Positions 23,002 to 39,472 of a DNA stretch of 64,000 bases are shown here, one piece after another. Made by a program: the position numbers and the translations under genes. The notes below the pieces were generated by a model, which saw nothing but the letters and a program-made list of their open reading frames with translations, searched no databases and was not told where the DNA came from. The stretch covers positions 746,074 through 810,073 of the forward strand of contig NZ_SJPX01000006.1 of the NCBI RefSeq assembly GCF_007860175.1. The letters are read 5' to 3'. Numbering within the stretch: position 1 is the stretch's first letter; each line of letters begins with the position of its first letter. This stretch comes from Rubripirellula reticaptiva. Lineage in GTDB: Bacteria > Planctomycetota > Planctomycetia > Pirellulales > Pirellulaceae.

Positions 23002-24425
23002 TAGACATTTACGGCCGGCTGAGATTTCACAGTGGCGAGCCCAGCTTCTTTCCAGGCCATGTAGCCACCCGTCAGATTGACCACCTTTTTGAAACCGGCG
23101 GCTTGCAGGACACTTGCCGCGATCGCCGAACGAGCACCACTGCGGCACTGAACAACCAACTTTTTGTCTCGAGACAGTTCGTCCAGGCACTTCGACAAAC
23201 GTCCGAGAAAGCAATGTTCAGCTTCTTCGATGTGCCCTTCTTTCCATTCTTCATCCGAGCGAACATCAAGCAGCTTCACGTCGCCGGCTTCGATACTGTG
23301 CGATAGGTCCACAGGTGTGCCAGACAAGTACACTTCGGTTGCCAATCCGCGCGATTGAACTTCGCGTGCGTCAAACCCGCCAGCGATATGCTCGACGCCA
23401 ATTTTATGCAAAACTCGCGCCGCTTCCTCGATCTGGTCTGGTTCGCAAATCAGATACGTCGGGCGGTCATAGTCAACTAACCAACCCGCCCACGCCGCAA
23501 GCATCGGCAAAGGAATGTTGATCGTTCCCGGCACATGTCCAGCACCGAACTTTGATGATGGCGATAGATCCACGACGGTTCCGGACCCAACGGCCGCTGC
23601 CAGTTCAGTAACAGCGAGCAGCTTGTGATGATGTCCAGCCCCCAAAATCCGCGGGCCTTCCTTGTTGACTTTCTTCATCACAGCAAAATACTTTGGCGCC
23701 TCTGGTTGGTCCGCCAAAATGTAGCGAACAAACTGGTCTTCGTCGTTGAACTGCAGCGCCGGGTTGAACCGTTTTTCGTAGCCGACGGTGGACGATGGAA
23801 TTGCGCCTAACCCTTTTCCGCAGGCACTTCCGGCTCCGTGCGCTGGCCAAACTTGCAAGTAATCGGGCAAGGACTTGAATCGCTCGGCTGATTTGAAAAG
23901 GTCGCGAGCGCCCGGATCTGCTGTACCCGTCAATCCCGCAGCTTCTTCGAGCAAATCCGGCCGACCGATTGATCCAACAAACACAAAGTCACCCGTGAAG
24001 ATCCCCATCGGTTCGTCGGCGCCACCCCCTTGATCCGTCAACACAAACGAAATGCTCTCTGGCGTATGCCCGGGTGTGTGCATGACGTCGAAACGAATCT
24101 TGCCAATCATGAAGTGATCGCCATCATGAAGAAGATCATTGTCATAGCCATCCAAGTACAAGTACTTCCACTCGGCCGACCCTTCGTCAGAAACGTACAG
24201 CTTTGCGTTGACTCGATCGGCTAGCTCGCGTGCGCCCGAAACATAGTCAGCATGAATATGCGTCTCGGCAACGGCGATGATCCTGACACCCTCTTTTTCA
24301 GCCATGCGAAGGTATTGTTCGATATCGCGACCGGGATCGACAATTACCGCTTCGTTGGCTCGTTGACAACCAACCATGTAGGACGCGTGGGCGAGTTTAT
24401 CGTCGTAGAAGTACTTCAATAACAT
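23001..24425 (-). CDS. Persulfide dioxygenase fused to two rhodanese domains
   Basis: ATG 24425 (MLLKYFYDDKLAHASYMVGC) is preferred over the upstream frame start at 24479. 474 aa. Residues ~1-245 are an ETHE1-type metallo-beta-lactamase fold: AETHIHADYVSGARELA, DVMHTPGHTPESISF, FTGDFVFVGSIGRPDL and VWPAHGAGSACGK, the last two giving the Fe-binding Asp and His. Residues ~260-355 are a rhodanese domain that keeps Cys (TYLICEP) but lacks the normal loop, so it may be inactive. Residues ~370-470 form an active-looking rhodanese: VVQCRSGARSAIAASVL. The reaction is oxidation of glutathione persulfide to sulfite, with the rhodanese supplying or accepting sulfane sulfur. Confidence 0.93.
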   Translation of the reverse strand: MLLKYFYDDKLAHASYMVGCQRANEAVIVDPGRDIEQYLRMAEKEGVRIIAVAETHIHADYVSGARELADRVNAKLYVSDEGSAEWKYLYLDGYDNDLLHDGDHFMIGKIRFDVMHTPGHTPESISFVLTDQGGGADEPMGIFTGDFVFVGSIGRPDLLEEAAGLTGTADPGARDLFKSAERFKSLPDYLQVWPAHGAGSACGKGLGAIPSSTVGYEKRFNPALQFNDEDQFVRYILADQPEAPKYFAVMKKVNKEGPRILGAGHHHKLLAVTELAAAVGSGTVVDLSPSSKFGAGHVPGTINIPLPMLAAWAGWLVDYDRPTYLICEPDQIEEAARVLHKIGVEHIAGGFDAREVQSRGLATEVYLSGTPVDLSHSIEAGDVKLLDVRSDEEWKEGHIEEAEHCFLGRLSKCLDELSRDKKLVVQCRSGARSAIAASVLQAAGFKKVVNLTGGYMAWKEAGLATVKSQPAVNV

Positions 24426-24488
24426 TTTGATTGTCCGTTGATTTGGGGGTAGTGGCTGACAATGCGAAGGGCATGCCAAGTTGGAGAG

Positions 24489-25313
24489 TTACAGAACCAC
24501 TGTTTTGAAAATCACAAAGATCGCGACAAACACGACCGCGATCGAAAAGGTTTTTTGCAGTGTTGGTCCCTTAAGTCGCTTGGCGACGATGCCGCCCAGC
24601 CACATTCCAATGAAACCACCCGCCATGAATTGCAACGTCGTTTCAAGCGACAACTCGCCACCACCGACGATATGTGATGCTACGCCGCTGATGCTGACCA
24701 GAACGATGACAAACAGAGATGTCCCAACTGCTTGGTGAATCGCCATCCCGCTGAAGATCACCAGTGCGGGAACGATCACAAAGCCACCACCGACGCCGAA
24801 CATTCCCGACAGCACGCCCATCATTAACCCGACGACCACAAGCAGACGTGCACACTTGGACGTCAATCGCAGCTTGCCATCAGCGTCGCGTTGGCAGGCA
24901 CTTCGATCTGGCCCTGGTTCGCTTTCCGTCGTGCAAACTCCGCTCGGAATGTTTGGATTGCAAGCCTTGGACCACATCCGCTGTGCGACCACAAACATCA
25001 ATACCGCGAACATCACCAACAACACTGTCTCGGGAACAAGCTTCGAAAGGTAGGAACCGACAGGCGCGCCCAGCATGCCGGCGACTGCAAACAGCAATCC
25101 CGTTCGCAGTTCAACCTCGCCACGGATCAGTCTTGGCACCGCGCCAAACAAGGCGGTACCACCAACGGAGGCCAATGAGATTCCCACAGCCTCGCGGGGC
25201 GCAACCGCCAGCCCGTAAACAAGCAACGGCACCGCAAAAATACCGCCACCGCCACCGGTCAATCCCAATGCGAATCCAACGACAGTCCCGAACAAGATGG
25301 CTAGGCCGAGCAT
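24489..25313 (-). CDS. TauE/SafE-family sulfite/sulfonate exporter-like permease
   Basis: ATG 25313, with GGAGG about 11 bases upstream, overlaps the rhodanese-DUF2892 gene by 13 bp; the longer frame from 25382 would overlap 82 bp. 274 aa, about eight TM segments in two homologous halves, each with the TauE/SafE glycine-rich signature: GFALGLTGGGGGIFAVPLLV and GVLSGMFGVGGGFVIVPAL. The halves are joined by a cytoplasmic loop with several Cys (SKACNPNIPSGVC). TauE proteins next to persulfide dioxygenases are thought to export the sulfite made by the dioxygenase; the next gene, 63 bp downstream, is exactly that. Confidence 0.9.
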   Translation of the reverse strand: MLGLAILFGTVVGFALGLTGGGGGIFAVPLLVYGLAVAPREAVGISLASVGGTALFGAVPRLIRGEVELRTGLLFAVAGMLGAPVGSYLSKLVPETVLLVMFAVLMFVVAQRMWSKACNPNIPSGVCTTESEPGPDRSACQRDADGKLRLTSKCARLLVVVGLMMGVLSGMFGVGGGFVIVPALVIFSGMAIHQAVGTSLFVIVLVSISGVASHIVGGGELSLETTLQFMAGGFIGMWLGGIVAKRLKGPTLQKTFSIAVVFVAIFVIFKTVVL

Positions 25314-25855
25314 GAGCTGCCACAGCCTCCGTCGCCGCACTGGTTCCAGGGCATCTTTGCGATCATCGACGCCATCGGACACAAACCCGTCAAGCCGGCA
25401 AACATCAACCCACAGCCAACGAAGGCCGAGAGTCCAACGAAGTAGGGATGAACAAGATAGGCAAGCACGACGCCGAGCACCGTCAGGAATCCGGCAGCGA
25501 TCTGCACTTGCTGCATCAATGGAAACGACTTCTTGCCACGAACGACTGGCAGATTCGCGCTGTCCCAGGCCGTCGTGCCGCCCTCGACGTTAACAACATT
25601 ATCGAAGCCAGCGTCGATAAACTTCTTGCACGCCTGCGCCGACCGGTTTCCACTGCGGCAGATCACGTACAGAGGGAGACTGGCCGATCCGTTCCGGGCC
25701 GCCATGACAGCCTTGGGATCCAGCGAATCCAGAGGGACGCTACGCGCACAATCGGCATGCACCTCGCGAAACTCGGTAGGCATCCGGACATCAATCAAAT
25801 CAATTTGCTCGTTCTCTTGCTTCGCTGCTAATTCCTTGACACCAATCGTCTTCAT
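25301..25855 (-). CDS. Rhodanese domain fused to DUF2892 membrane domain (YgaP-like)
   Basis: ATG 25855 has a strong ribosome site GGGGAG nearby; the longer frame from 25960 lacks one. 184 aa. Residues ~1-115: rhodanese fold (LIDVRMPTEFREVHADCARSVPL, active loop VICRSGNRSAQACK). Residues ~120-165: two TM helices of the DUF2892/YgaP type (VQIAAGFLTVLGVVLAYLV, AFVGCGLMFAGLTGLCPMA). The tail CGDGGCGSSCSA has three cysteines, possibly a metal or sulfur site. A membrane-tethered sulfurtransferase at the cytoplasmic face is expected. Directly downstream of a predicted ArsR site at 25909, and first enzyme gene of the sulfur island. Confidence 0.92.
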   Translation of the reverse strand: MKTIGVKELAAKQENEQIDLIDVRMPTEFREVHADCARSVPLDSLDPKAVMAARNGSASLPLYVICRSGNRSAQACKKFIDAGFDNVVNVEGGTTAWDSANLPVVRGKKSFPLMQQVQIAAGFLTVLGVVLAYLVHPYFVGLSAFVGCGLMFAGLTGLCPMASMIAKMPWNQCGDGGCGSSCSA

Positions 25856-25908
25856 TCGAAACTCCCCGTTTTGGAAAACCCTGCCACCCAAAACCCCGCT
25901 ACCTCGCA

Positions 25909-25920
25909 AGGTTCCGATAT
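25909..25920 (-). promoter_or_regulatory. Predicted ArsR operator upstream of rhodanese-DUF2892
   Basis: On the minus strand this reads ATATCGGAACCT, identical over 12 bp to the left part of the palindrome upstream of the ArsR gene (26340-26351). It stands 54 bp before the ATG of the rhodanese-DUF2892 gene. The second half (CGAGGT) is less like the ArsR copy (CGATAT), so the site would be weaker. Confidence 0.55.
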
Positions 25921-25986
25921 ATTTGTGTAAATGTTTGGATCGTTTCCGATCCGGCTTCAACTCAGTTCAACAAACTCACGTTTCCA

Positions 25987-26319
25987 TCAAGGCAAGAATC
26001 GACTTTCAATGCATGCCATCAACGGAACCAGATGTGGCTCGGCGACCTGATAGTAAACGTTTCGGCCCTCACGCTGACTGACCAGAAAACCGCACCGCTG
26101 TAACAGTCTCAGTTGCTCGGATCCAACGTTGTCTTGAATCTGACAATCCTCGGCAATTTCGCCAACCGTGTATCGCCCGTGCAGCAATAACTGCACAATC
26201 CGCAACCGGACTGGGTGGGCAAGTGCTTTCAAACACTCAGCCGCAGCAGCAAAATCCTGGATCTGCCCTGGTGGCTTCGCTAGTTCATTTGATTTCATTT
26301 CTGCGTTCATGTCGTTCAC
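25987..26319 (-). CDS. ArsR/SmtB-family transcriptional regulator
   Basis: GTG 26319 or ATG 26310 start; 110 aa. Winged helix of the ArsR type: CLKALAHPVRLRIVQLLL, YTVGEIAEDCQIQDN, recognition helix GSEQLRLLQRCGFLV, and wing SQREGRNVYYQVAEP. There are four cysteines at ~29, 59, 76 and 103. It is the first gene of the minus-strand sulfur island, which codes for persulfide metabolism, so it may be a sulfide/persulfide sensor such as BigR/SqrR, where two cysteines form a tetrasulfide. The canonical pair cannot be aligned with confidence by eye. Autoregulation is suggested by the palindrome 21 bp upstream. Confidence 0.9.
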   Translation of the reverse strand: MNDMNAEMKSNELAKPPGQIQDFAAAAECLKALAHPVRLRIVQLLLHGRYTVGEIAEDCQIQDNVGSEQLRLLQRCGFLVSQREGRNVYYQVAEPHLVPLMACIESRFLP

Positions 26320-26454: not shown

Positions 26455-26469
26455 GGACACAATCTGTCC
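26455..26469 (+). promoter_or_regulatory. Predicted enhancer (UAS) of the NtrC-like regulator, HK/RR operon
   Basis: GGACACAATCTGTCC is a near-perfect inverted repeat matching 13 of 15 bases of the enhancer-like palindrome at 34440-34454 upstream of the RND operon. It ends 74 bp before a sigma-54 promoter. A further TGTCC half-site lies at 26487-26491. Position and spacing fit a binding site for a bacterial enhancer-binding protein. Confidence 0.65.
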
Positions 26470-26542
26470 AACAGATGGAAAGTGGCTGTCCAAGAAAGCC
26501 ACCATCATCCACCTGTCTGCGTCAATGAAGCAAAAACGGCGG

Positions 26543-26558
26543 TGGCACAACTCTTGCT
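26543..26558 (+). promoter_or_regulatory. Sigma-54 promoter of the histidine kinase/response regulator operon
   Basis: TGGCAC-AACTC-TTGCT fits the sigma-54 consensus (TGGCACG-N4-TTGCW) with GG at -24 and GC at -12, twelve bases apart. It lies 60 bp before the kinase start at 26619 and 74 bp after the predicted enhancer. The regulator encoded by this operon is a sigma-54 activator, so autoregulation is expected. Confidence 0.75.
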
Positions 26559-26618
26559 TCCCCAACCTGGGTTGGAACCATCGACTGCGGTGATGTTCCT
26601 TTCCGATGGATTCGGCCT

Positions 26619-28145
26619 ATGGATATGGCGAGGCGCAAGATGTCTAACCCGTTGCTAAACTACGATCACACAAAACAACGGATCGCCACGAGCTTTTCGC
26701 AAGATGCTACTAGCCGTCCATTCTCGGGCTCTCCTTCACAGTTTAGACCACTGGCGTCGGAACCGCCCTTTCCGCGACTGTATCAGCTTTTGCTCATGAC
26801 GAATCGCATCTCAGCCCTCTCCACCATCCTGCGTTCACCGATGCGGATTCTTGGCTTGGTGCTGGTGCTTGTCTTCACGGCCGAGGTCGCCGTCATGCTT
26901 GTGCTGCCTCACGTGACACCTGCCATGCTTAGCGAACCAGTCGAAGCAATTGTCGACGCGATCCTGCTGACGCTCGTCTGCGCCCCAGTGCTTTGGTTAG
27001 TCATCATCGGCCCGCTTCGCCGTATCGCAATCCAGGAACACCAGCGCAGCGAGACGATCGTCGCGAACGCCGGCGAAAGCATTCTGACGTTCGGTCGTGA
27101 CGGGACCGTTTTATCTTGCAACCGAGCCGCCACTGAAATGTTCGACATCAATGCCGAAACGCTGATCGGTCGTTCCATCACGTCATTGGTTCCGGCACTT
27201 CCCGACATCCCAGATCAATTGCCGTCCGAGTTTCGCCTCGACGGAGTGCGAAGCGACGGCGAACAGTTTCCGCTGCAAATATCTGTCAGCGAGTATCCGT
27301 CGGAGTCGCAACAAACGCGGATTGCGATCGTTCGCGACCTGACCGATTCGCAAAAGTCCGAAAACGAACGAATTCTGATGGCTCGCAAAACGGAAGCTTT
27401 ACGTGCCCAGCAGATGACGACTCTCGCGCAACTCGCAACCGGCGTGGCTCACGAAATCCGCAACCCGCTGACGTCGATCAAAATGCTGATTCAAGTCAAT
27501 CGTGCAAAATTCGCGGATGAAGGACTGCCGACCGATGATTTGGAACTGGTCGAGCAAGAAATCCGTCGCATGGAGCGGTCGGTCAACAGTCTGCTAGATT
27601 ACGCCCGTCCCGAAACATCCGAATTCAAAAGATTCGCGATCCAAGAAGCAGTTCGCCGAACGGTGCAATTGATCGATGGACGTTGTCGAAATCAAAACGT
27701 CGAACTGGTCGTCACAGCGCCCGACGCAGCGGTTCCAGTCGAAGGCGATGCCGCTCAAATTCAACAACTGCTGTTGAACCTAGGTTTGAACGCGCTCGAT
27801 GCAATGCCCACTGGCGGAACTCTCAATCTGATCGTATCTGAAGTCGACGACCAAGTCGTCGTTTCGGTTTGCGACAGTGGCACAGGCATCAGTTCGAATG
27901 TGCTGGAAAAGCTGTTCACTCCATTCGTGACCAACAAAACCAATGGTATTGGCCTAGGCCTGGGCATTTGCCGCCGCATCGCCGACGCTCATCAAGGAAA
28001 ACTAACGGGTACGAACCAGGCCAGCGGCGGCGCCAAATTTCAGTTGACATTGCCGAGCGTGACGGAACATTCTGCGCCCAACCAATCGAAACCCGACTAC
28101 GACCCGCTTGGTCACTCTCAGGAACCACCATGCAAAGCCTGTTAG
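26619..28145 (+). CDS. PAS-containing membrane histidine kinase (NtrB-like)
   Basis: Starts at ATG 26619 or ATG 26640, both downstream of the sigma-54 promoter. 508 aa. Two TM helices (~77-97 and ~111-132) enclose only about 13 residues, so there is no real periplasmic sensor domain. A PAS domain follows (~146-245; AGESILTFGRDGTVLSCNRA). The HisKA domain contains GVAHEIRNPLTSIKML with the phosphorylated His278, and the ATPase domain has N box (NLGLNALDAM), G1 (CDSGTGIS), F box (LFTPFVTNK) and G2 (GIGLGLGICRRI). Genes for kinase and response regulator overlap by 16 bp. Stimulus unknown; it must act through the membrane or the PAS domain. Confidence 0.93.
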   Translation: MDMARRKMSNPLLNYDHTKQRIATSFSQDATSRPFSGSPSQFRPLASEPPFPRLYQLLLMTNRISALSTILRSPMRILGLVLVLVFTAEVAVMLVLPHVTPAMLSEPVEAIVDAILLTLVCAPVLWLVIIGPLRRIAIQEHQRSETIVANAGESILTFGRDGTVLSCNRAATEMFDINAETLIGRSITSLVPALPDIPDQLPSEFRLDGVRSDGEQFPLQISVSEYPSESQQTRIAIVRDLTDSQKSENERILMARKTEALRAQQMTTLAQLATGVAHEIRNPLTSIKMLIQVNRAKFADEGLPTDDLELVEQEIRRMERSVNSLLDYARPETSEFKRFAIQEAVRRTVQLIDGRCRNQNVELVVTAPDAAVPVEGDAAQIQQLLLNLGLNALDAMPTGGTLNLIVSEVDDQVVVSVCDSGTGISSNVLEKLFTPFVTNKTNGIGLGLGICRRIADAHQGKLTGTNQASGGAKFQLTLPSVTEHSAPNQSKPDYDPLGHSQEPPCKAC

Positions 28146-29542
28146 TCATTGATGACGAACCATCGATTTTGAAAGCGTTCGAGCGTGCTTTTTCCAGCGA
28201 AACGACTACGGTACTAACGGCCAAAAACGCGGCGGATGGGGAAGCGGTTTTTGCTAAGTCCAAGCCCGACGTCGTCGTGATTGATCTGAGTCTACCCGAC
28301 ACATCGGGACTGGAATGCTTCAAACGTCTACGCGAGATGGACGCTCGTGTTCCTGTGATTTTCATCACGGGCCATGGCACCGTTGAATCGGCGATCGAGG
28401 CGACCAAGCTTGGTGCGTACGACTACCTGTTCAAACCGCTTGAACTCGACGAGATGCGGACGCTGTTGGACAAGGCACTGAATCTTAGCCGTATGGTGCG
28501 CGTTCAACCGATGTTGGCCGACGAAGAAGACACCGTCGCCGATGCAATCGTCGGTCGTTGTAAAGCGATGAAAGAAGTTTACAAAGCGATCGGTCGCGTA
28601 GCCTCACAGAATCTGACGGTATTGTTACTCGGCGAGAGCGGTACCGGCAAAGAAGTCGTCGCCCAAGCGATCTACCACCACAGCGCACGATCGACCGGTC
28701 CGTTTCAAGCGATCAACTGCGCGGCGATCCCCGACGCGTTATTAGAAAGCGAGATTTTCGGTCACGAAAAGGGTGCGTTCACCGACGCCCATCGTCAACG
28801 AATCGGAAAACTAGAACAGGCCGACAAAGGCACGTTGTTCTTGGATGAAGTCGGCGATATGTCGCCAATGACCCAGGCAAAATTGTTAAGAGTGTTGCAA
28901 GACCAAACCTTCGAACGTGTCGGCGGCAACACACCGATCAAAGTCGATGCCCGCATCATCGCGGCGACGAATCACAACCTAAAACAGCTCGTATCCGAAG
29001 GTCTGTTTCGATCCGATTTGTACTTTCGACTTAGCGTCGTGACGATCCAGTTACCACCGCTGCGTGAACGCGAAGATGACTTGCGAGTGCTGTCGGAATA
29101 TTTCCTTCGGAAGTACAGTAACGAGTTCGGGAAAGACATCCGCTCGCTCGCACCTGAAACACTGGAACTGCTGCACCAATACCATTGGCCTGGCAATGTG
29201 CGCGAGCTCGAAAGCGTGATGAAGCAATCCCTCCTGACGGCGCGCGGCAACATTTTGCTGCCAGAGTTTGTTCCGCCTCTATCGGATCAATCAAACAATC
29301 TCGCCGGTGGAAAAAATGACGGTGAGTATCTTACCGAAGCGTTCATTGCCGAGCGTTTGGAATCAGGGAGCGATAACTTACACGCCGAAGCAATCGCGAA
29401 GGCCGAGCATCAGCTTCTACGTCAAGTACTTCACAACACCGCGGGCAACCAACTGAAGGCTGCCAAGATCCTCGGCATCTCGCGAGTCACGCTGCGAAGC
29501 AAACTGAAGTCTCTTGGCATCGAAGCAAGTGATTTCTCCTAG
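28130..29542 (+). CDS. Sigma-54-dependent response regulator (NtrC family)
   Basis: ATG 28130 lies inside the end of the kinase gene; a longer frame from 27869 is only the shadow of the kinase. 470 aa with the three NtrC-family domains: receiver (~1-115; phospho-acceptor Asp52 in VIDLSLPD), AAA+ (~140-375) with Walker A LGESGTGKE, GAFTDA in the sigma-54 contact loop (215-220), LFLDEVGD Walker B and PLRERE, and a C-terminal Fis-type HTH (NQLKAAKILGISRVTLRSKL). GAFTDA differs from the commonest GAFTGA, but variants with Asp occur in functional activators. Likely binds the palindromes at 26455 and 34436. Confidence 0.94.
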   Translation: MQSLLVIDDEPSILKAFERAFSSETTTVLTAKNAADGEAVFAKSKPDVVVIDLSLPDTSGLECFKRLREMDARVPVIFITGHGTVESAIEATKLGAYDYLFKPLELDEMRTLLDKALNLSRMVRVQPMLADEEDTVADAIVGRCKAMKEVYKAIGRVASQNLTVLLLGESGTGKEVVAQAIYHHSARSTGPFQAINCAAIPDALLESEIFGHEKGAFTDAHRQRIGKLEQADKGTLFLDEVGDMSPMTQAKLLRVLQDQTFERVGGNTPIKVDARIIAATNHNLKQLVSEGLFRSDLYFRLSVVTIQLPPLREREDDLRVLSEYFLRKYSNEFGKDIRSLAPETLELLHQYHWPGNVRELESVMKQSLLTARGNILLPEFVPPLSDQSNNLAGGKNDGEYLTEAFIAERLESGSDNLHAEAIAKAEHQLLRQVLHNTAGNQLKAAKILGISRVTLRSKLKSLGIEASDFS

Positions 29543-29565
29543 CATCGTCACCAGATTCCGATTTA

Positions 29566-32500
29566 TTAGTGCAATGTTGGCTCAGGCTCGCCATGATGCG
29601 TTAACTTGATTTGTTGCAAGCCGCGTGCGAACCAAGGGTAAACGCAAGGCACGAACAACGAAGTCAACAGGGTCGACGTGATCAGTCCGCCGATCACGAC
29701 AGTCGCAAGGGGGCGCTGCATCTCGGCACCGTCACTTGTTGAAAGTGCCATCGGCAGGAACCCGAGACTCGCAACCAATGCGGTCATCAACACCGGTCGC
29801 AAACGAACCAACGCAGTCTCGTGAGCCACCAAACCGAGCGGCATGCCGGTTTCTCGCAGATGTTCTGCAGCACTGACCCAAACCAAACCGTTCAGCACCG
29901 CAACGCCGAACAGTGCAATGAAGCCGACCCCAGCAGAAATACTGAACGGCATCTCACGAAGGTACAACGCGATGACTCCACCGGATGCCGCCATTGGAAC
30001 GGCCAGGAAGATCAGGAATGCTAGCCGCATCGATCCGAGGCTGGTGTGAAGCAACAACATGATGACGACCAGCACGATCGGCGTGATGATGGCAAGTCGT
30101 CGGCTAGCGGATTGCAAGTTTTCGAAGTCACCACCCCAGCGGATTTCGTATCCGGGCGGGAGTTCGACTTTGGCGGGAATCACTCGCTGAGCCTCGGTGA
30201 CAAAAGTCGCCACATCGCGTCCCCGCACGTTCGCGGAAATGAACGTCCGACGGCGATTGCCTTCGTGTTCGATCGTTGGCGGCGTTTCTTCTAGACGAAT
30301 TTCGGCGAGTTCTTTTAATGGCACCGCTTTTCCGTTCGAGTCCGCAACGGGAACCTGTTCTAGCAGCGATAAGTTTTCACGCCATCGCTGGGGAACTCGC
30401 ACCATGATCGGATAGCGAGTTCGCCCCTCATAAATCTGGCCAACCTGATGTCCACCCAGCGATGAAACGACATCCAAAACAACTTGCGCATCGATTCCAT
30501 ACTGAGCAAGTGCCTTGGGCTTGGTTTGAATCGTCAAAGTCGACAAATTGGCTTGATAGTCTGCCTTCACATCGACAGCCCCCGGGATCGACCGCAAAGC
30601 AGCTTCGATCTCTTTGCCCTTGGCACCAAGAACTTCCATGTCATCGCCATACAACAGGACCGCAACATCGGCTTTCACACCAGCAACCAATTCGTCCACT
30701 CGCATCTCGATCGGTTGTGTGAATCCGAACGCGACACCCGGAACATTGGCGTTCAGCTCATCCGACATCTGCTCGATCAATTCATCGCGAGTCTTCTGGA
30801 CCGGCCACTCGCCGATGGGATTCAGCAGCACCCAAACATCGGTCTGGTGCACGCCCATCACATCGTTGGCGATTTCTGGCCGGCCAGTTTTCGAGAAAAC
30901 AGTTTGAACTTCGGGATACTTTTTCAAAATGGATTCGATCTGGGTCGACATCTCAATCGAACCTTCGAGCGTTGCACTGGGCAGTCGCGACGCTTCGACC
31001 AACAAATCGCCCTCTTCTAAGCGAGGCATGAATTCCGCCCCCAAATTCGCGGCCATCGGCAAACTGATCGCAAACAAAGTCAGCGCCGTCCCGATCGTGA
31101 CGACAGGATGCTTGATCGCTCGTGTGACAATGGGTTCATAGAACCATTTGACAATCCGAACCACGAACACATCCTTCTCGCTCATCTTTTTCGGCAAAAA
31201 GATCGATGCCATCGCCGGCATGAATGACAGCGACAGAATCATCGAACCGCCCAGTGCAAACAGGACAGTTAGCGCCATCGGTCGAAACAGTTTGCCTTCG
31301 GTGCCCTCGAGCAACAAGATTGGCAGAAACACAACCGCGATAATCAGTTCGCCAAACATCGTTGGCTTGCGAACTTCCACCGCGGCATCGCGAATGATGT
31401 CTTCGTGTTTGGTGTCACCGTTATCGTGCGAAAGCTTACGAATGCAGTTCTCGACCATGATGACGCTGCTGTCGACGATCAACCCAAAGTCGATTGCTCC
31501 TAAACTCATCAAACTAGCCGTCACGCCGGACGCCAACATCACGTTGGTCGCAAACAACATCGAAAGCGGAATCGCCAGCGCGACGATGATGCCTGCACGC
31601 AGGTTACCGAGCATCAGCAACAGCACGATGATCACCAACATGCCACCTTCGGTCAGGTTGGTTAGCACAGTTTTTAGCGTGCGGCCAATCAGCGCCGCCC
31701 GGTCATAGGTAACCTCGAGTCGCACTCCATCGGGCAAAGTCGTTTCGATCTCTTTGAGCCGTTCTTTGGCCGCAGTTACAACCTCGCGTGAGTTCTCGCC
31801 GATCAACATCATGACTAGCCCCGTCACGATTTCGCCACGACCATCGCGCGTAACCGCCCCCTGGCGCGTCATCGGTTCAATGCTGACTTTTGCGATATCG
31901 CGAACAAGAATCGGGTTACCGTCGGGTTCGCGGCGAATGACAACGGATTCGATATCTTCAGCAGAGGTCAACAGCGAGACACCGCGAATGAAACGCTGTT
32001 CGCCGTGGTGAATGACGTACCCGCCGCCGGACGTGTTGTTATTGTTTTCTAGCCGAGAGAACAACAAATCCATTGGGATGCCATAGCTAGTCATCCGATC
32101 GGGATCCGGTTGAACTTCGAACGTTTTATAGTAGCCGCCGTGAGTATTGATTTCAGTCACGCCGGAAACCTGACGTAGACGTGGCGAGATATCCCACTCC
32201 AACATGGTGCGCAACTCCATCGGAGTGTGCTTGTCGCTACGAACTTCGAATTGCAGAATCTCGCCGAGCGCAGTGGTCAGCGGGCCAACCGCGGGTGTTC
32301 CATATCCGGCCGGAATCACCGCCGCAGCATCGGGCAAACGTTCGGCGACTAACTGGCGTGCCCGATAGATATCGGTGCCTTCTTCGAACACGATCGTGAC
32401 GACCGAGATACCGAACTTGGAAACGCTGCGAAGCTCCTCGACGTCGGGCAAACCGCCCATCGTGTTTTCGACTGGGTATGTGACATAACGTTCAACTTCG

Positions 32501-32676
32501 ACCGGCGACAAAGACCCCGCGTCGGTGACCACTTGCACCTGAACGTTGGTCATATCGGGCACGGCGTCGATCGGCAACTTGAGCGCCGAATACATCCCGG
32601 CACCGGCCATCAGCAACGTCAAGATGATGACGAGGCCTCGATTGACGACCGAAAATTCAATGATTTTGGTAAGCAT
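29566..32676 (-). CDS. Heavy-metal efflux RND transporter (CzcA/CusA family)
   Basis: 1036 aa, the usual length. First TM helix at the N-terminus (NRGLVIILTLLMAGAG), then pore domain, TM2-6 (GGMLVIIVLLLMLGNLRAGIIV...), second pore domain, and TM8-12 (VLVVIMLLLHTSLGSMRLAFLIF...). In TM4 the sequence GAIDFGLIVDSSVIMVEN keeps the Asp residues of the CzcA-type proton relay rather than the CusA-type sequence, so divalent cations (Zn, Co, Cd, Ni) are more likely than Cu/Ag. It pumps metal from periplasm or inner-membrane leaflet outward. Co-transcribed with the adaptor (gap 89 bp). No outer-membrane factor gene adjoins it. Convergent with the NtrC-like gene, ending 23 bp apart. Confidence 0.95.
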   Translation of the reverse strand: MLTKIIEFSVVNRGLVIILTLLMAGAGMYSALKLPIDAVPDMTNVQVQVVTDAGSLSPVEVERYVTYPVENTMGGLPDVEELRSVSKFGISVVTIVFEEGTDIYRARQLVAERLPDAAAVIPAGYGTPAVGPLTTALGEILQFEVRSDKHTPMELRTMLEWDISPRLRQVSGVTEINTHGGYYKTFEVQPDPDRMTSYGIPMDLLFSRLENNNNTSGGGYVIHHGEQRFIRGVSLLTSAEDIESVVIRREPDGNPILVRDIAKVSIEPMTRQGAVTRDGRGEIVTGLVMMLIGENSREVVTAAKERLKEIETTLPDGVRLEVTYDRAALIGRTLKTVLTNLTEGGMLVIIVLLLMLGNLRAGIIVALAIPLSMLFATNVMLASGVTASLMSLGAIDFGLIVDSSVIMVENCIRKLSHDNGDTKHEDIIRDAAVEVRKPTMFGELIIAVVFLPILLLEGTEGKLFRPMALTVLFALGGSMILSLSFMPAMASIFLPKKMSEKDVFVVRIVKWFYEPIVTRAIKHPVVTIGTALTLFAISLPMAANLGAEFMPRLEEGDLLVEASRLPSATLEGSIEMSTQIESILKKYPEVQTVFSKTGRPEIANDVMGVHQTDVWVLLNPIGEWPVQKTRDELIEQMSDELNANVPGVAFGFTQPIEMRVDELVAGVKADVAVLLYGDDMEVLGAKGKEIEAALRSIPGAVDVKADYQANLSTLTIQTKPKALAQYGIDAQVVLDVVSSLGGHQVGQIYEGRTRYPIMVRVPQRWRENLSLLEQVPVADSNGKAVPLKELAEIRLEETPPTIEHEGNRRRTFISANVRGRDVATFVTEAQRVIPAKVELPPGYEIRWGGDFENLQSASRRLAIITPIVLVVIMLLLHTSLGSMRLAFLIFLAVPMAASGGVIALYLREMPFSISAGVGFIALFGVAVLNGLVWVSAAEHLRETGMPLGLVAHETALVRLRPVLMTALVASLGFLPMALSTSDGAEMQRPLATVVIGGLITSTLLTSLFVPCVYPWFARGLQQIKLTHHGEPEPTLH

Positions 32677-32765
32677 GATGAATTTCTAGTAGGTAGCCGC
32701 GACGTTGACGGCTGGATGAAGGGCAGGGGAGATAGGAAAACCGAACGCAGTGGGTTCGGTTGCGT

Positions 32766-34286
32766 CTACTCGCCTTCGCCCTGCAAAAGAAGTTCGGATT
32801 TCAACAAGAAAGCACCTTTCGTGACCACTGCCAGGCCTGGCTGAAGACCGTTGGTGACTTCGATCCAGTCGTCTGACACATGTCCCGTCGATACATCAAC
32901 TCGCTTGAATGTTCCGCCGCCTTCATCAACGAACACAAACGACTGGTTTTCGTGTTGCACCACTGATTCTGGTTTCACCGACAATGCTTCGCGGGCATCG
33001 CCGATCGGAATGGTCACGCGAACGAACATTCCCGGACGCAAAAGGCCTTCGCTGTTTTCGATCTTCGCAACCAAGGGAACTGAATTCGTGTCCGCTTGCA
33101 CCTCGCGTCCGAAATATCGAATCTGAGCTTCGAAGACACGATCGTCGAGGGCGGGCACTAATACCGAGACGGCTGTGCCTTGATCAAGCGAAACCGCCGA
33201 CCAATCGCTTTCACGAATGCTGGCTGCGACATAGAGCGAATCGGTGTTGGCAAGCACAATCAGCGAATCACCTCGACTGACTCGCTCGTCATTGGCGAAA
33301 GCACGTGATTCGACAGACCCAGCAAATGGGGCCCGCACTTCAAGTCGCGAAAGAGCCTCTTCGTTACTCAAAACGGCCGTCGCACGGTCTTCTTTGTAAC
33401 CGAGCAAGGTTTCGACCGATTGCCAGGCAAGATTCAATTGACGATCGGCTTCCGACAGCTTTGCCTCCGCGTTGAGTTTTGCTTGGTTGGCCGCAAAGGT
33501 TGCTTGGTCGCGAGCGGTCCGAAACTCGGTTTCTGCCATTTGACGCTCAGCTTGTCGTTCACGAACCGACCGACCAGAAACAGACCCTGAATTGGCGAGC
33601 GGCTCGATCATGTCGAGCAGTTCCGACGACAATTGCATCTTGGCATAGGAAGACAATATCCCTTGACGATAGCTACCAAGGGTTCGATTGCTAAACGCGT
33701 TCTCGATCTCATCAACCGACACCCCTTGGTCGAGCATTGCTGACATTTGTTCGAGATTCTTCGCCAACGAGAGTTCTCGTTGAAACAGTTGCTCAGCGAT
33801 CTCGCGTTGGTTTTGACGTTTCAGAATTTCCGCGCGAGCTTGTCCAATTTCGGGACTGCGGAGCACTGCAAGCAACTGACCGCTTTCGACATGTTCCCCA
33901 GGCGTGACGAACACCTCGGCAAGGATGCCGTCCATTGGCGCCTTAACGTCCACGTGCCTGGTTTCGTCGTAACGAATCCGCCCCGGTATTGTGTGAACAT
34001 GCTTGACAACCTGCATTTGAGCCGGAACCGTTTCAAACTTTGCGGCCTTGATCTTGCCGGCCGGCAACGTCAGTGAATCGGGGATCGCGACTTCTTCCGC
34101 CACCGATTCCTCGACTTCAGATTGGCCGCCTGTGTTGATCTCGTGAACGGCCAACCAACCGCCCCCCATGACGGCTAGCACGAACAGCGTCGGAGCGACT
34201 TTGGCGATCGCACCCAAAAATCCGCGCTGGGATTCGGCGGATTGTTGCGATACGGTTTCTTGCGGTACGGAAGGAGCGTTGGGCAT
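32766..34286 (-). CDS. Heavy-metal RND periplasmic adaptor (CzcB/CusB type)
   Basis: ATG 34286 (an in-frame TTG stands one codon upstream). 506 aa. Single N-terminal TM helix (TLFVLAVMGGGWLAV), then barrel-sandwich half (KHVHTIPGRIRYDETRHVDVKAP, MDGILAEVFVTPGEHVESGQ), a long alpha-helical hairpin (~residues 150-300), return beta strands (VRAPFAGSVESRAFANDERVSRGD) and membrane-proximal beta domain (VSTGHVSDDWIEVTNGLQPGL). First gene of the RND operon, downstream of the sigma-54 promoter at 34338-34353. Links the RND pump to an outer-membrane channel, which is not in this window. Confidence 0.92.
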   Translation of the reverse strand: MPNAPSVPQETVSQQSAESQRGFLGAIAKVAPTLFVLAVMGGGWLAVHEINTGGQSEVEESVAEEVAIPDSLTLPAGKIKAAKFETVPAQMQVVKHVHTIPGRIRYDETRHVDVKAPMDGILAEVFVTPGEHVESGQLLAVLRSPEIGQARAEILKRQNQREIAEQLFQRELSLAKNLEQMSAMLDQGVSVDEIENAFSNRTLGSYRQGILSSYAKMQLSSELLDMIEPLANSGSVSGRSVRERQAERQMAETEFRTARDQATFAANQAKLNAEAKLSEADRQLNLAWQSVETLLGYKEDRATAVLSNEEALSRLEVRAPFAGSVESRAFANDERVSRGDSLIVLANTDSLYVAASIRESDWSAVSLDQGTAVSVLVPALDDRVFEAQIRYFGREVQADTNSVPLVAKIENSEGLLRPGMFVRVTIPIGDAREALSVKPESVVQHENQSFVFVDEGGGTFKRVDVSTGHVSDDWIEVTNGLQPGLAVVTKGAFLLKSELLLQGEGE

Positions 34287-34337
34287 CAAGAATCGCTGCG
34301 TAAAAGGTGATCGAAATCAGTTCCGAGTCACTTACCT

Positions 34338-34353
34338 AGCACGATTCGTGCCA
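34338..34353 (-). promoter_or_regulatory. Sigma-54 promoter of the RND efflux operon
   Basis: On the minus strand the sequence reads TGGCACG-AATC-GTGCT: a perfect -24 box with GG, and a -12 element matching TTGCW except for the first T (G), keeping the key GC. Spacing is exact. It lies 52 bp before the adaptor ATG. The predicted enhancer palindrome is 82 bp upstream of the promoter. Confidence 0.7.
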
Positions 34354-34435
34354 TCGCCAAAAAACCCCTGTTTTTGCGACGTTTGGACCAACGGAGCGTC
34401 GCCGTCGACCCAAAAGAGAAAGAGTTTCACCACCG

Positions 34436-34458
34436 CAGTGGACAGATTCTGTCCACTG
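34436..34458. promoter_or_regulatory. Predicted enhancer (UAS), 23-bp perfect palindrome upstream of the RND operon
   Basis: CAGTGGACAGA - T - TCTGTCCACTG: eleven-base arms around a single T. Its core GGACAGATTCTGTCC matches the site at 26455-26469 at 13 of 15 positions. It is ~80-100 bp upstream of the sigma-54 promoter on the minus strand, the classic placement for an enhancer-binding protein. Confidence 0.75.
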
Positions 34459-34522: not shown

Positions 34523-37500
34523 CTAACCGATACTGGTCTGCAGGCCAAGTTCGGTTAGGAATTCGTCGACGCTGTTCGCCCATGTCTCGGTCGCGCCGGA
34601 TTGCTCGGAAGCAGCCCTCTGCGGTTCGGCAGTTTCACTGGTCTGCTCGGCGAAGGAAGCGACCTTGTCGATGGTGGTCTCGGAGTCGAAAGTAAACTCG
34701 ATGTCCCTGGTCCTTTCGAACAAAGTGATTGGCGACGAAGGAGGCTGAACAAGCACTTGTTCGCCGTCGACTTGTTCGCCGCCACTGTTACTGATCCTAG
34801 CCAGTTGATTGATCACACGCAGTGCATCAAGTGCAGTCGCCCGTCCGTCGCCATTTTGATCGTAGTACGTACCTGGAAATGGATTTGACGTTGTTGGATC
34901 TTCCAGCAGGCTGCTGGCGCCGTCCGAGTAGGCCCGTCGTCCCAGTTCGTTGATGACCACCAACGCGTCGCTGGCTGTGACGGAGCCATTGTTGTTGACG
35001 TCGGAAGGCTCGATCACGTTGTGCCACCCCGACGTGGCTTCTGTTCGCACGATCTGACCTGTCACTTGGTTCAAAGCCACGATCACGAATCCGCCACCCG
35101 ACGTATCCGGCGTGTCCATTCGCCAGTCCGCGACATCAACAAAGACCAATCGATCTTCGGCCGAGTTGGCGCGGACCAGAATCGTTTGCGCAGCAGGGGA
35201 AAGCGAGGTGACAACGCCCGCATCAATCGTGATCGTTTGCGATCCTGGCGTCATCAGATCAATGATCGCAAAATTCTCGATCACAAGGACCGTGGGATCC
35301 GTCAAATCAACGGTCGCCGTTTCGACAACCAACGTGTTTGTACCGAGCGAGCCGTTGATGGCAAGCGTTGCCGAATCCGACAACGACGACACGACCAACG
35401 TGAATGAATCGTCGGATTCCGTGCCATCAATTTGCAGGTCTGTCAACGCGTTCACCGGCGCCTCGAAAAGCGTGTCGGCACCCGAGTCGACGGTAACGTT
35501 GCCACCGGCTGATGTTACGCTTCCCAAGCCGCCCACCACGGTAACAATCGCATCGGCTTGCAAATCCCCGTCGAGGATTTCGACAAGAACGTCTTCGACT
35601 TCACCGTCCACCGCGGCGCCGGTCGGACCAAGTGAACCTGCACTGCTGAGCCGGAATCGGGCGAACGTTTCGCCAGCGAGAGTTCCCGCGGGAACGGTGA
35701 ACGAGATCACGTTGTCCCCTGCGGTGACTGACAGGTTGGTTGCAATTTGATCGGCACTGTCCCAAGATCCATTGGCATCAAAATCAAGCCAGGCGTCTAG
35801 TTTCGCATCAGCCGAAACCGACACCAAGAAGCTGGCGATTGTATCAGTGCCGGAAACGGCAACCGGGTTCGCCAGCAGAGTCACACCGTCATCATCGTCT
35901 GCATCGGCTGCCAGAGATGGCTGCCCGTCGTCGTCGGCAGTAACTACCGATCCCAAACGAAGCGATCCCACCGTATGTCTGGCTCCGTCATCAGCTAATG
36001 ATACGGCATAGTCACTCGGCGCGTCACCAAAGTCCTCGTCCGAGACCGCTTCTTCAACCACGTCGATCAGCACGGTCTTGTTGACTTCGTGATAATTCGC
36101 ATCATCGGGCGTGAACCGAACACTTAACAATTGTCCGTCACCCAGTTCCAACTCGGTATCGACCGGCGGAGTGTAAACAAACGTCCCCGCGATATCCGCC
36201 GTCGCATTCAACTGATCCGTCGACAACACGGTCCCGACGATGATCGCAATGGGTGTTTCCCAATTGACGTTCGGTTCGGCTGTATCGACATCGATCGTCG
36301 TTGTGATGGTCACTGATCGAAACGCAAACGGATCATTCGGCGTAAACACCGCCGTCAACGTCTGGCCAGCACCGGCGTCCAAAACCGTTCCTGATACTGG
36401 CGTATAGGTGAACGAACCTGCGGCAGTCGAGACTGCGTTCAACTGCGTGCCACTAAGCGCCTCACCGAACGTGATGCCAGCGGGCGTGTCCCAGGTCACC
36501 GTGGGAATCGGCGCAAGTTCGACGGATCCCATATCGACGGCGCCAACGACGCGGGTTGCCGTCCGAACGTCGACGGGCAAGATTTCAGTCCGGCTACCAT
36601 TGCCATTGATATCGTAAGAATCCAGCGGCAGTCGAACGGTACTGCCATTATCAATTGCGGGACTTGATTGAAGAGGCAAATGCACACGAAGCCTTCCGCC
36701 TTGAGTCATCAGCGGACTTAGTTTCGGGTCAATCGCATCCGCCCCCGCACCGCCAATGAAATTGCCGCCGGCGCCCGCGACCGGTTGCCCGTCGGTGACC
36801 GGAGTCGCAGTAAGCAGCGTGCCCGAGTTGTCACCGATCAACGAGAAATCAACGTCAAGGTTGGCGACAGGATTCTGAGGAGAGTTGAATTCAGGGGCGA
36901 TCGGGGCCGTGTTCGCTGCGACGATCGAATTGTCGATCGCCAGCGTTGTCGAACCGGCAGCCATCCGTATAGCACCGCCCTGCACGACCGCGGAATTACC
37001 CGTGAACGTAGACGACTCGATCGACACCGCGCCCGCGGACGAAAACACGCCGCCTCCATCAGCACCGGCCGCGTTAGTCGAAATGGTTGAATCAACCAAC
37101 ACCAACAACGTTGCCGCGCCATCAAGCACGACGCCACCACCTGACTGAAGCGAAACATTCTCGGCGACCAGCGAACCAGCGATCGAGAGCGATCCAGCAG
37201 AGACATGAATGGCACCTCCGGAATTCGCCGAGTTCCCAGACAGCTCGACGCCGACCAGCACGAGGTCACCCGGCGAACTTGACGTGATCGCACCACCTTT
37301 GCCGGCCGCGCCAGTCGACGCGGACACGTCGCCACCGGAAAAACGCAAACCAGACATGTTGACGTTACCCGCCGTTGATGCAATCTCAACCAAGCGTTTC
37401 GTGGTGCCGGCAGGGCCGACGATTGCTAAAAGATCAGCGCCAGGGCCGACGATCGAAACCGTCTCGGTAATGGTCAGTGGCGGAAGAGAAGCATCAAGCG

Positions 37501-39472
37501 TGATCGTAGCACCGATCGATCCCGGTACAACGATCGTGTCGAACCCTTCGCTGGCGTTGGCAAGTTCGATCAATTCGCGAAGCGAACGATCGCCGGGCGC
37601 TAAATTACCATCCGATTCATCAGAGATTGTGTCGACCGTCAGAATCGGACGCGACTGGCGTTCGACGGCTCCCATGTCGACCGTTGCGCCTGATCCAGAC
37701 GCATTTGCAATTCGGCTGAACAGGCCGCCCCGCTGATCGTTCTCCAGCGTCACATCATCGCCGCCACCCGAAACACCGTCTTCGCCAAAATCGACAGCCA
37801 AGGCGTTGCTACCTGCATCAACGACAATGCTCGACGACGCTGGATTGTGAGTTCGTGTGGTGCCACCATTATTAGCCAACGGTCCCAGTGCCGGGTCCAC
37901 TGGTGAAGTCGGAGTTCCAATGTAATTGCCTCCAGTACCGTTCGATGCCGCTAGCGATGTGTCTTTGTTATTTCCGATCAAGCTGAAACTGACGCGCAAG
38001 TTGGCCACCGGGTTGGCTGGCGAGACAAAGTCGGGTCCAAGAGGCGAGACGTTCTCGGCAACGATCGAATTCTGGATCGAAATCGACCCAAAATTGTCAC
38101 CGACAAAGATCCCGTCGTTTAGCGTGCCGATACCACCGCCCGAGATGTTCGAATCGTTATCCGTGACGGTTGAGTTGACCAAACGTATCGGCGCGTTGTC
38201 GGTCTGGATTCCGCCGCCGCGAACATTGCCCGTGTTACCGGAAATGGTCGAGTTGGTCAGCGTGACTCCCCCCGTCACCGTCGCGATGCCGCCGCCATCG
38301 CCGCCTGCCGTATTCGAGTCAATCGTCGATTCGCGAATGATCACCTTGCCGCTGACGTTCGAAATACCACCGCCATCGGTAACGCTGTTGTTTGAGCTGA
38401 TGGTTGAACGAGTGATCGTCAAATTGCCGGCGAAGTTAGAGACTCCACCGCCATCACCGTACTGGGCTTGGTTATTGGTGATTTTTGAATCACTGATCGT
38501 GATCGCCCCAGAATCGTTCAGGATCGCACCACCGTTATACAGTGCAGTGTTACCGTCAAACGTCGACGCCGAAATCGTAACCGCACCACTGATGCTGTAG
38601 AGAGCACCGCCGTCGCCGCCCGCGGTTGAGTTGCCACTGATGATGCTGTTATTGATCGTGACGTCGCCATCACCGCTGTCGATGGCACCGCCGTTGAAGC
38701 CCGATTCACTGACTTGGTTGTTGGTCAGGTTGCTGCCAGAGATTGTGATCGGACCGGCCGACGGACTCGAGATTGCACCGCCGCTGCCATAGGACTGATT
38801 GTTGTTGAACGTCGAGTCTTCGATAACGATCGAGCCCTCGACGACTTGGATGGCGCCGCCGCCACCGCGTACCGCTTCGTTGTTTTCCAACGTACTGCCG
38901 ACGATACGGACCGTTCCGTCATATTCGCTGTAGATTGCACCGCCGCTATCGGCGACATTGCCCGAGATGACGCTGTCTTGAATGGTCAGCGTGCCTGAAC
39001 TTTGGAAACGAATTGCGCCGCCGAAATCGGTTTCCACGCGGCCACCTGTCAGCGTTAACCCTGAGATCGATACATCACCGGCAGCAGCCGAAATATCGAA
39101 CAATCGAAATTCGTTGACCGCGCTGGTGGTGGCACGAACGGTTAGCGACCCTGCGCCCGGGCCAGTGATCGTGACGGGATCGTTGATCAACAACTCGCCG
39201 TTGGCGGCCGTCAAATTGATCGTGCCCGTCACCGACGGTGCGAACGTGATTTCGTCAGGGCCGGGGGATGCGTTAGCCGCAATCACTGCGTCGCGAAGTG
39301 TGCAAACCGAAGTGCCGCAAGCTCCACTGCCTGCGTCACCGCCGGTGACGACAATGTAAGCAGCAAGGACGCGGCGGTTTTCGAGCGATTCCATCCTAGA
39401 GAGTCGTCGGCGAACACGAGCGGTGGCGCAACGACTGGACTTAACGCGAGAGAACAGTTTGCGGACTTGCAT
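34523..39472 (-). CDS. Giant surface protein: beta-helix repeats, MBG-like, GEVED and dockerin modules
   Basis: ATG 39472 (in-frame ATG 39505 gives 11 more residues). 1649 aa. The N-terminus holds a planctomycete LEPR-type export motif (RRLSRMESLENRRVLAAY). Two right-handed parallel beta-helix regions of the choice-of-anchor Q type (~50-500 and ~615-950) repeat 'GG.I....G.....S.ISGN...GGGI'. Each begins with a CTLRDAV or SLRELIELAN motif. Then two MBG-like Ig modules (~985-1155), a DFGDAPSDY/GEVED module (~1160-1330, DGEVEDV), a variable beta region, and a dockerin type I (~1515-1590; DVNNNGSVTASDALVVIN and DQNGDGRATALDALRVIN). Secreted, surface-exposed; function unknown. Confidence 0.88.
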   Translation of the reverse strand: MQVRKLFSRVKSSRCATARVRRRLSRMESLENRRVLAAYIVVTGGDAGSGACGTSVCTLRDAVIAANASPGPDEITFAPSVTGTINLTAANGELLINDPVTITGPGAGSLTVRATTSAVNEFRLFDISAAAGDVSISGLTLTGGRVETDFGGAIRFQSSGTLTIQDSVISGNVADSGGAIYSEYDGTVRIVGSTLENNEAVRGGGGAIQVVEGSIVIEDSTFNNNQSYGSGGAISSPSAGPITISGSNLTNNQVSESGFNGGAIDSGDGDVTINNSIISGNSTAGGDGGALYSISGAVTISASTFDGNTALYNGGAILNDSGAITISDSKITNNQAQYGDGGGVSNFAGNLTITRSTISSNNSVTDGGGISNVSGKVIIRESTIDSNTAGGDGGGIATVTGGVTLTNSTISGNTGNVRGGGIQTDNAPIRLVNSTVTDNDSNISGGGIGTLNDGIFVGDNFGSISIQNSIVAENVSPLGPDFVSPANPVANLRVSFSLIGNNKDTSLAASNGTGGNYIGTPTSPVDPALGPLANNGGTTRTHNPASSSIVVDAGSNALAVDFGEDGVSGGGDDVTLENDQRGGLFSRIANASGSGATVDMGAVERQSRPILTVDTISDESDGNLAPGDRSLRELIELANASEGFDTIVVPGSIGATITLDASLPPLTITETVSIVGPGADLLAIVGPAGTTKRLVEIASTAGNVNMSGLRFSGGDVSASTGAAGKGGAITSSSPGDLVLVGVELSGNSANSGGAIHVSAGSLSIAGSLVAENVSLQSGGGVVLDGAATLLVLVDSTISTNAAGADGGGVFSSAGAVSIESSTFTGNSAVVQGGAIRMAAGSTTLAIDNSIVAANTAPIAPEFNSPQNPVANLDVDFSLIGDNSGTLLTATPVTDGQPVAGAGGNFIGGAGADAIDPKLSPLMTQGGRLRVHLPLQSSPAIDNGSTVRLPLDSYDINGNGSRTEILPVDVRTATRVVGAVDMGSVELAPIPTVTWDTPAGITFGEALSGTQLNAVSTAAGSFTYTPVSGTVLDAGAGQTLTAVFTPNDPFAFRSVTITTTIDVDTAEPNVNWETPIAIIVGTVLSTDQLNATADIAGTFVYTPPVDTELELGDGQLLSVRFTPDDANYHEVNKTVLIDVVEEAVSDEDFGDAPSDYAVSLADDGARHTVGSLRLGSVVTADDDGQPSLAADADDDDGVTLLANPVAVSGTDTIASFLVSVSADAKLDAWLDFDANGSWDSADQIATNLSVTAGDNVISFTVPAGTLAGETFARFRLSSAGSLGPTGAAVDGEVEDVLVEILDGDLQADAIVTVVGGLGSVTSAGGNVTVDSGADTLFEAPVNALTDLQIDGTESDDSFTLVVSSLSDSATLAINGSLGTNTLVVETATVDLTDPTVLVIENFAIIDLMTPGSQTITIDAGVVTSLSPAAQTILVRANSAEDRLVFVDVADWRMDTPDTSGGGFVIVALNQVTGQIVRTEATSGWHNVIEPSDVNNNGSVTASDALVVINELGRRAYSDGASSLLEDPTTSNPFPGTYYDQNGDGRATALDALRVINQLARISNSGGEQVDGEQVLVQPPSSPITLFERTRDIEFTFDSETTIDKVASFAEQTSETAEPQRAASEQSGATETWANSVDEFLTELGLQTSIG

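Follow-up and report, generated by a model that had tools for sequence, protein, structure and literature searches.

A predicted two-component sigma-54 switch at a heavy-metal-type RND efflux operon of Rubripirellula reticaptiva and its relatives

The locus and its two promoters

The stretch of Rubripirellula reticaptiva DNA analysed here (64,000 nucleotides, in the following the window) is part of contig C6 in a 7.85-Mb genome of 13 contigs, which bears the label G000 in our comparisons. It contains two convergent operons, a kinase-regulator operon on the plus strand and an adaptor-permease operon for a resistance-nodulation-division (RND) pump on the minus strand (34286-29566), and each is preceded by a putative sigma-54 promoter of the -24/-12 type with enhancer-like palindromes further upstream. 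The kinase gene (26619-28145, +) encodes an NtrB-like membrane histidine kinase with PAS, HisKA and HATPase domains, as assigned by Pfam and an alignment of orthologues. The regulator gene (28130-29542, +) encodes an NtrC-type response regulator, for which Pfam and alignments give a receiver, an AAA+ sigma-54 activator domain with a GAFTDA loop and a Fis-type helix-turn-helix (HTH). In the pump operon, the periplasmic adaptor gene comes first (32766-34286, −; CzcB/CusB-like, TIGR01730 with 148.1 bits against a cut-off of 94.9), accompanied by the permease gene (29566-32676, −), whose product belongs to the CusA/CzcA family of heavy-metal pumps and passes the HME-RND model TIGR00914 with 1128.9 vs 701.45 bits.

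The receiver, sigma-54 AAA+ and Fis HTH assignments of the regulator rest on PF00072, PF00158, PF25601 and PF02954, all above the Pfam cut-off, and this domain set, together with -24/-12 promoters that have palindromes upstream, predicts an enhancer-binding protein of the NtrC type. The protein lies below the curated model for NtrC (NR(I)) itself (TIGR01818, 481.9 vs 558.6 bits), and searches of the PDB with kinase and regulator returned generic relatives only. A change from GAFTGA to GAFTDA in the sigma-54 contact loop makes NorR constitutive. The loop reads GAFTDA in 22 of 24 orthologues, GSFTDA in one and GAFTGA in another, the most divergent (G019; G047 was left unread), and the HTH stretch LGISRVTLRS is invariant in all 24 regulator orthologues read, G019 not being among these. 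An excerpt of work on Desulfovibrio vulgaris lists GAFTDA among the GAFTGA variants that would maintain activation (PMC4641369). In the kinase, two hydrophobic stretches separated by a short loop (~15–20 residues) are kept in 5/5 kinases compared in an alignment by eye. As the PAS domain is missing from two of these five (G159 and G209) and the hydrophobic pair from none, the conserved input of the kinase would appear to be its membrane part.

The sigma-54 consensus is TGGCACR-N4-TTGCW. Before the kinase operon, TGGCACAACTCTTGCT (26543-26558, +) fits it entirely and scores 20/20, and the element before the pump operon, TGGCACGAATCGTGCT (34338-34353, −), is a good fit that is conserved in the pump promoters of relatives. 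Both promoters, as well as near-identical palindromes upstream of them with a 23-bp palindrome at the RND operon, had been proposed in an earlier sequence-only reading and were found again here. Enhancer site 1 of the kinase operon, GGACACAATCTGTCC (26455-26469, +), ends 73 bp ahead of the -24/-12 element, and its counterpart at the pump operon is the 23-bp palindrome (34436-34458, −) with the core GGACAGAATCTGTCC (34454-34440, −), from which the -24/-12 element is 86 bp away, or 82 bp when counted from the whole palindrome. Distances of 74 and 82 bp had been given previously; the reported match at 13 of 15 positions is right as a plus-strand count and becomes 14 of 15 when the repeats are read in promoter orientation.

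Absent from that reading were a second site in each promoter and a third composite of palindrome and promoter before a second RND operon. Site 2 of the kinase operon is GGAAAGTGGCTGTCC (26477-26491, +), 22 bp past site 1, and a weak site 2 of the pump operon is GGTGAAACTCTTTCT (34417-34431, −), 23 bp past its site 1 and poor in matrix score (−5.2). The matrix was trained on eight RND promoter sites, including the window's own and one before a decayed adaptor copy in G159. Over the 64-kb window it ranks 34439 highest (30.7; pump site 1, itself a training site), followed by 26454 (20.9; kinase site 1) and 26476 (15.8; kinase site 2), the next place scoring 8.1. Since an RND-only matrix ranks the two kinase sites second and third, the kinase promoter is singled out by sites learnt from pumps.

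Conservation among relatives and specificity of the motif

Within the genus, orthologues of the regulator (at least 79%) and of the pump (at least 88%) occur in the same four of 22 genomes (G000, G151, G159 and G204). The family set comprises 199 genomes, 23 of which carry a regulator of at least 69% identity, and together with G204 and G209 this makes 25 regulator genomes, 22 of them with a pump orthologue of at least 77% (in fragments in G063). Adaptor and permease lie on separate contigs in G191. The regions upstream of the kinase in G204 and G183 and upstream of the adaptor in G172, all cut by contig ends, were unreadable and left out. G197, whose 67% pump is incomplete and borders the end of a contig, was kept out of the promoter counts and RND paralogues of 46–52% identity out of the site counts, and G208 and G146 were taken as one genome, as they show the same composite at the same coordinates.

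All 22 readable pump promoters, from 21 genomes, carry the enhancer site, including all 15 that had no part in the training, G047 weakly (14.9). The -24/-12 element exceeds the score threshold in 20 of the 22; G150 and G198 fall short of it by one point, and their elements, 97 bp away, were accepted by eye. The pump site is present although the regulator lies on another contig (G146/G208 and G154) or ~0.2 Mb off (G138); in G156 pump and regulator each border a contig end and are possibly adjacent. Furthermore, a genome-wide degenerate search in G208 and G209 finds one place each, before the pump. Both site and -24/-12 element were found in 14 of the 23 readable kinase promoters. A confinement of the predicted self-regulation to the genus of the window, as viewed from loci L051 and L052, is ruled out by its occurrence in three more genera (g24, g37 and g46).

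In 26 loci, 29 distinct sites score at least 12: the adaptor is preceded by 17 of them, the kinase by 11 and an outer-membrane-factor gene by one. This last one (L236:6180 in G156) is an enhancer-like site (19.3) with no -24/-12 element scoring at least 18 beside it, and a third pump component, the outer-membrane factor, may join the regulon in this genome. In G209 another enhancer-like site (L157:6133, 14.9), followed 79 bp on by a -24/-12-like element, stands before a gene for a PAP2-like lipoprotein (by eye) that directly precedes the pump operon.

Aligned pump promoters show three conserved blocks: site 1, an element 23 bp further on, and the -24/-12 element. When seven intact RND promoters are anchored on site 1, invariant columns number 12 of 17 in site 1, 4 of 18 in site 2 and 0 of 85 elsewhere. 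When matrix scores are averaged over the 22 pump promoters, +23 stands clear of every other offset (mean −10.8, against −28.3 for the runner-up and a median of −38.1 over all offsets); in G208 and G138 the second site is at +22 instead. At 14 kinase promoters the lead of the offsets −22 and −23 is less clear (−21.5 and −21.6, followed by −23.0), and the window's own promoter has its second site at +22. Well-scoring pairs occur at the kinase promoter of G000 and the pump promoters of G006 and G019, and fair pairs, in which a strong site is joined by a weak one (8.8 and 10.2), at the kinase promoters of G151 and G159, 22 and 23 bp apart; as most second sites have poor absolute scores, they are degenerate half-sites at best. 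In site 1 of G209 both arms of the palindrome are altered together (GGAAAGAATCTTTCC), which would fit the expectation for a dimer site. The strong site ends 83–98 bp before the -24/-12 element at most pump promoters, with all spacings between 51 and 142 bp. In 20 pump promoters the distance from enhancer to -24 belongs to one of the classes 83–86, 94–98 and 115–119 bp, G047 (71, weak site) and G198 being omitted from this calculation, and the best period of these distances is ~11–11.5 bp, so that strict helical phasing of 10.5 bp is not supported.

The core motif GGACA-N5-TGTCC alone is weak evidence and by itself not rare, with 10 occurrences in the genome (7.85 Mb) vs 1 for a reversed control. 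Among the other eight places, one on contig C3 has a -24/-12 element scoring 19/20 at enhancer distance (85 bp), and one at C1:724409 has an element scoring 19 but merely 7 bp away; the remaining places have 18 or less, or none. The strict composite, which requires the core and TGGCAC-N6-TGC at 62–92 bp, is highly specific, with 4 places in the 199 family genomes (3 in G000 and 1 in G151) and none for the reversed control. The search for the palindrome near sigma-54 promoters across genomes that had been proposed with the sequence-only reading comes out in its favour, and of the random occurrence that had been named as speaking against it, recurrence holds for the core and not for the composite with a promoter. 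A degenerate composite yields 10 places in 5 of the 22 genus genomes with control 0, including one in G092, which lacks the regulator, and 13 places with control 0 in six regulator-bearing genomes, where C2:77590 of G159 looks like chance. Over the 199 genomes its yield is 76 places in 51 genomes, the reversed control giving 17, and it was judged too loose to be used on its own.

For the matrix-scored composites, regulators of 57–58% identity (G014, G078, G097 and G120) were counted as absent. Composites scoring at least 20 were present in 17 of the 23 family genomes that have the regulator vs 2 of the 176 that lack it; as the genomes are related, Fisher values for this contrast do not amount to true probabilities. 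With the training genomes removed, 13 of 19 vs 2 of 176 remain. At a score of at least 22 the separation becomes 16 of 23 vs 0 of 176.

The third composite of G000 is the place on C3 and stands before the second RND operon (L015:8375-14102), whose permease is identical to that of the window at 95% of amino acids and 81% of nucleotides. A comparison of the two copies shows identity at 15/17 positions of site 1 and 16/18 of site 2, and the -24/-12 element is kept, with flanks of 18/60 and 19/45. Because no relative of kinase or regulator was found in the 19 kb examined around the second copy, its control would be in trans. Near the two pump copies are encoded the protein 21080-22339 (−) of the window and L015:15894-16856 (−), which have a C-terminal region in common (44% over ~115 residues), the latter being cysteine-rich. 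In G159, a composite of enhancer and promoter lies ahead of a decayed-looking adaptor gene (by eye; L141:6543-7313 on C12), which looks like the relic of a second pump copy.

Around the two operons, an operon-like run at 23004-26319 (−), divergent from the kinase promoter, encodes an ArsR-type regulator, a rhodanese, a TauE/SafE exporter and a metallo-beta-lactamase-rhodanese protein, and perhaps serves sulfane-sulfur detoxification. Upstream of the pump promoter lies a 1660-residue repeat-rich, surface-protein-like open reading frame with dockerin-like stretches by eye (34523-39505, −). In G159, the kinase is preceded on its own strand by ArsC-, ArsA- and ArsD-like genes (by eye) and an outer-membrane-factor gene (L048:3161-8334).

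Interpretation and rival explanations

In our view the locus very probably represents a two-component sigma-54 switch that is dedicated to an RND pump of the heavy-metal type, with the regulator acting through the shared predicted sites. The proposal that one regulator controls both itself and the pump gains good support from the comparison of genomes, to a different extent for its two halves: control of the pump (22/22) looks like the conserved core of the predicted circuit, and self-control (14/23) is frequent, not universal, as judged from the promoters.

Several observations weigh against this interpretation. Two genomes, G086 and G183, have the regulator and no pump orthologue was found in them, and in G193 a 68% pump occurs with neither the site nor an orthologue of the regulator. 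Nine of the 23 readable kinase promoters (G146, G209, G006, G063, G154, G138, G086, G047 and G019) are without a site scoring at least 12. The degenerate composite is noisy, 30 of its 51 genomes being without the regulator and 21 with it, so that the matrix score alone separates them, and even composites scoring at least 20 occur without a regulator in G111 and G141. Finally, two further composites of the TGGAAAGA..TTTCCA type stand before other genes of G000 (C6:669591 and C6:689449), one of them beside a paralogous regulator.

This last observation leads to the alternative that a different enhancer-binding protein, such as a paralogous NtrC-type regulator, binds the palindromes, and that the neighbouring pair is just one of its targets. 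Candidates are at hand, as the genome has 22 matches that extend across the sigma-54 activator domain (the regulator included), the nearest paralogues are 46–53% identical and two have similar HTHs, and with TGGAAAGA..TTTCCA-type sites near one paralogue and composites of this type before other genes, some sharing of sites among paralogues is possible. We nevertheless consider this explanation unlikely, as the strong composites track this very regulator in the association given above, which was tabulated for this regulator alone, and the sites precede this regulator's own operon in 14 of 23 cases. The two TGGAAAGA..TTTCCA sites with their -24/-12 elements (L017:9550 and L142:9213, on C6 of G000) lie ahead of a GNAT-nitrilase-like gene, which converges with the gene of a paralogous regulator (49%), and of a RimK-like/AstE-like pair (names by eye); perhaps they form a sister circuit that has its own version of the motif.

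Operators of a repressor or unrelated protein, the -24/-12 elements then using other enhancers, would be suggested by the ArsR/SmtB-family gene just upstream of the kinase operon (25990-26319), but the palindromes lie upstream of the -24/-12 elements, pair at 22–23 bp and recur in loci of relatives where this ArsR protein is unmatched at E ≤ 1e-20. We regard such a reading as very improbable in general, and an operator of the window's ArsR protein as ruled out by this missing match. That the two palindromes resemble each other by chance, as the ten occurrences of the core might suggest, is hardly conceivable given the strict composite's 4 places against 0 for the control and the 15/15 held-out pump promoters, and chance is refuted by this comparison as far as sequence can refute it.

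With a dedicated switch as the preferred reading, we infer the following course of events. The membrane kinase would sense a signal, presumably a divalent cation, and phosphorylate the NtrC-type regulator, whose dimers would sit via the Fis-type domain on the strong palindrome (consensus TGGAMAGNNNCTKTCCA), joined in most promoters by a second dimer on the weaker copy 22–23 bp away, about two helical turns. A regulator hexamer and a DNA loop to the sigma-54 polymerase at the -24/-12 element would then open the pump promoter. In G000 and many relatives the regulator's own promoter would be opened too, resulting in positive feedback, and the second RND operon of G000 would be driven in trans. 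A metal response as such we infer from the pump family alone.

Regarding the substrate, the positions of the three-methionine cluster of CusA, Met573, Met623 and Met672, hold Glu561, Gln611 and Glu662 in the pump (alignment, counted by hand), and a Cu(I)/Ag(I) substrate of the CusA type is ruled out by the missing cluster. The best solved relative of the pump is ZneA. A gene that we presume to belong to the VIT1/CCC1-like family follows the pump in G159, G204 and G198 (a partial match) and lies by the second copy in G000. With no methionine cluster and this neighbour, our guess is a divalent cation.

A wider generalisation, in which the GAFTDA-type pair with its minimal sensor would be the family-wide main switch of divalent-cation RND efflux, with cis, trans and duplicated pumps, arm-paired co-evolution of the enhancers and a paralogous pair that serves another regulon through a sister motif, is put forward tentatively, and we give it slightly less than an even chance.

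Comparison with known systems

Heavy-metal RND pumps are usually under the control of OmpR-type, MerR-type or extracytoplasmic-function (ECF) sigma regulators. A dedicated sigma-54 regulator would hold the pump promoter silent as long as no ATP-driven activator acts on it. The ZraS sensor has a large periplasmic zinc-sensing domain and in this differs from the window kinase, in which we see by eye no such domain between the hydrophobic stretches. The curated cut-offs are missed for both ZraS (178.2 vs 479) and ZraR (341.5 vs 760), scores that exclude membership in ZraSR, and the likening of the locus to ZraSR in the sequence-only reading finds no support beyond the NtrC-type two-component nature. 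Like the predicted circuit, ZraSR of E. coli works through a sigma-54-dependent response regulator of the NtrC type, which has few direct targets and counts its own operon among them; the targets named in the excerpted source are zraSR, zraP and mgtA, with no RND pump among them (PMC7657598).

The pump shares TIGR00914 membership with the CusA/CzcA-family pumps CusA and ZneA and, unlike CusA, has Glu/Gln/Glu in place of the Met cluster. DVU2106 of Desulfovibrio vulgaris has the GAFTDA loop as well and is, unlike the regulator described here, a single-component regulator of cell-division genes, according to the excerpt (PMC4641369). Both the GAFTDA loop and the minimal sensor are open to direct mutational tests.

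Sigma-54 promoters before ZraR-annotated regulators have been predicted in Planctomycetota, as far as the excerpted source goes (PMC12316311). Among the papers listed by our literature searches we found no description of sigma-54 two-component control of an RND pump in planctomycetes, and the conserved motif offers a testable regulon in a phylum for which these searches found just predicted sigma-54 promoters. The novelty claimed earlier stands for planctomycetes among the papers so listed and is limited by a precedent in Myxococcus xanthus. There, the DNA-binding domain of the autoregulated NtrC-type regulator Nla28 binds a promoter fragment of a CusA/CusB operon (MXAN989), which has a putative -24/-12 element, according to the parts of the source at hand (PMC9765219). 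In these parts, Nla28S/Nla28 resembles the planctomycete pair as an autoregulated system of a membrane kinase and a response-regulator-type enhancer-binding protein with putative sigma-54 promoters, and differs in its starvation and development regulon, in a pump annotated for copper/silver, and in its half-site, CT(C/G)CG(C/G)AG vs TGGACAGA..TCTGTCCA in the planctomycete circuit (PMC9765219). Given its recurrence in many relatives, we take the predicted switch as real but mechanistically classical, a dedicated variant for which Nla28 is the nearest experimental precedent.

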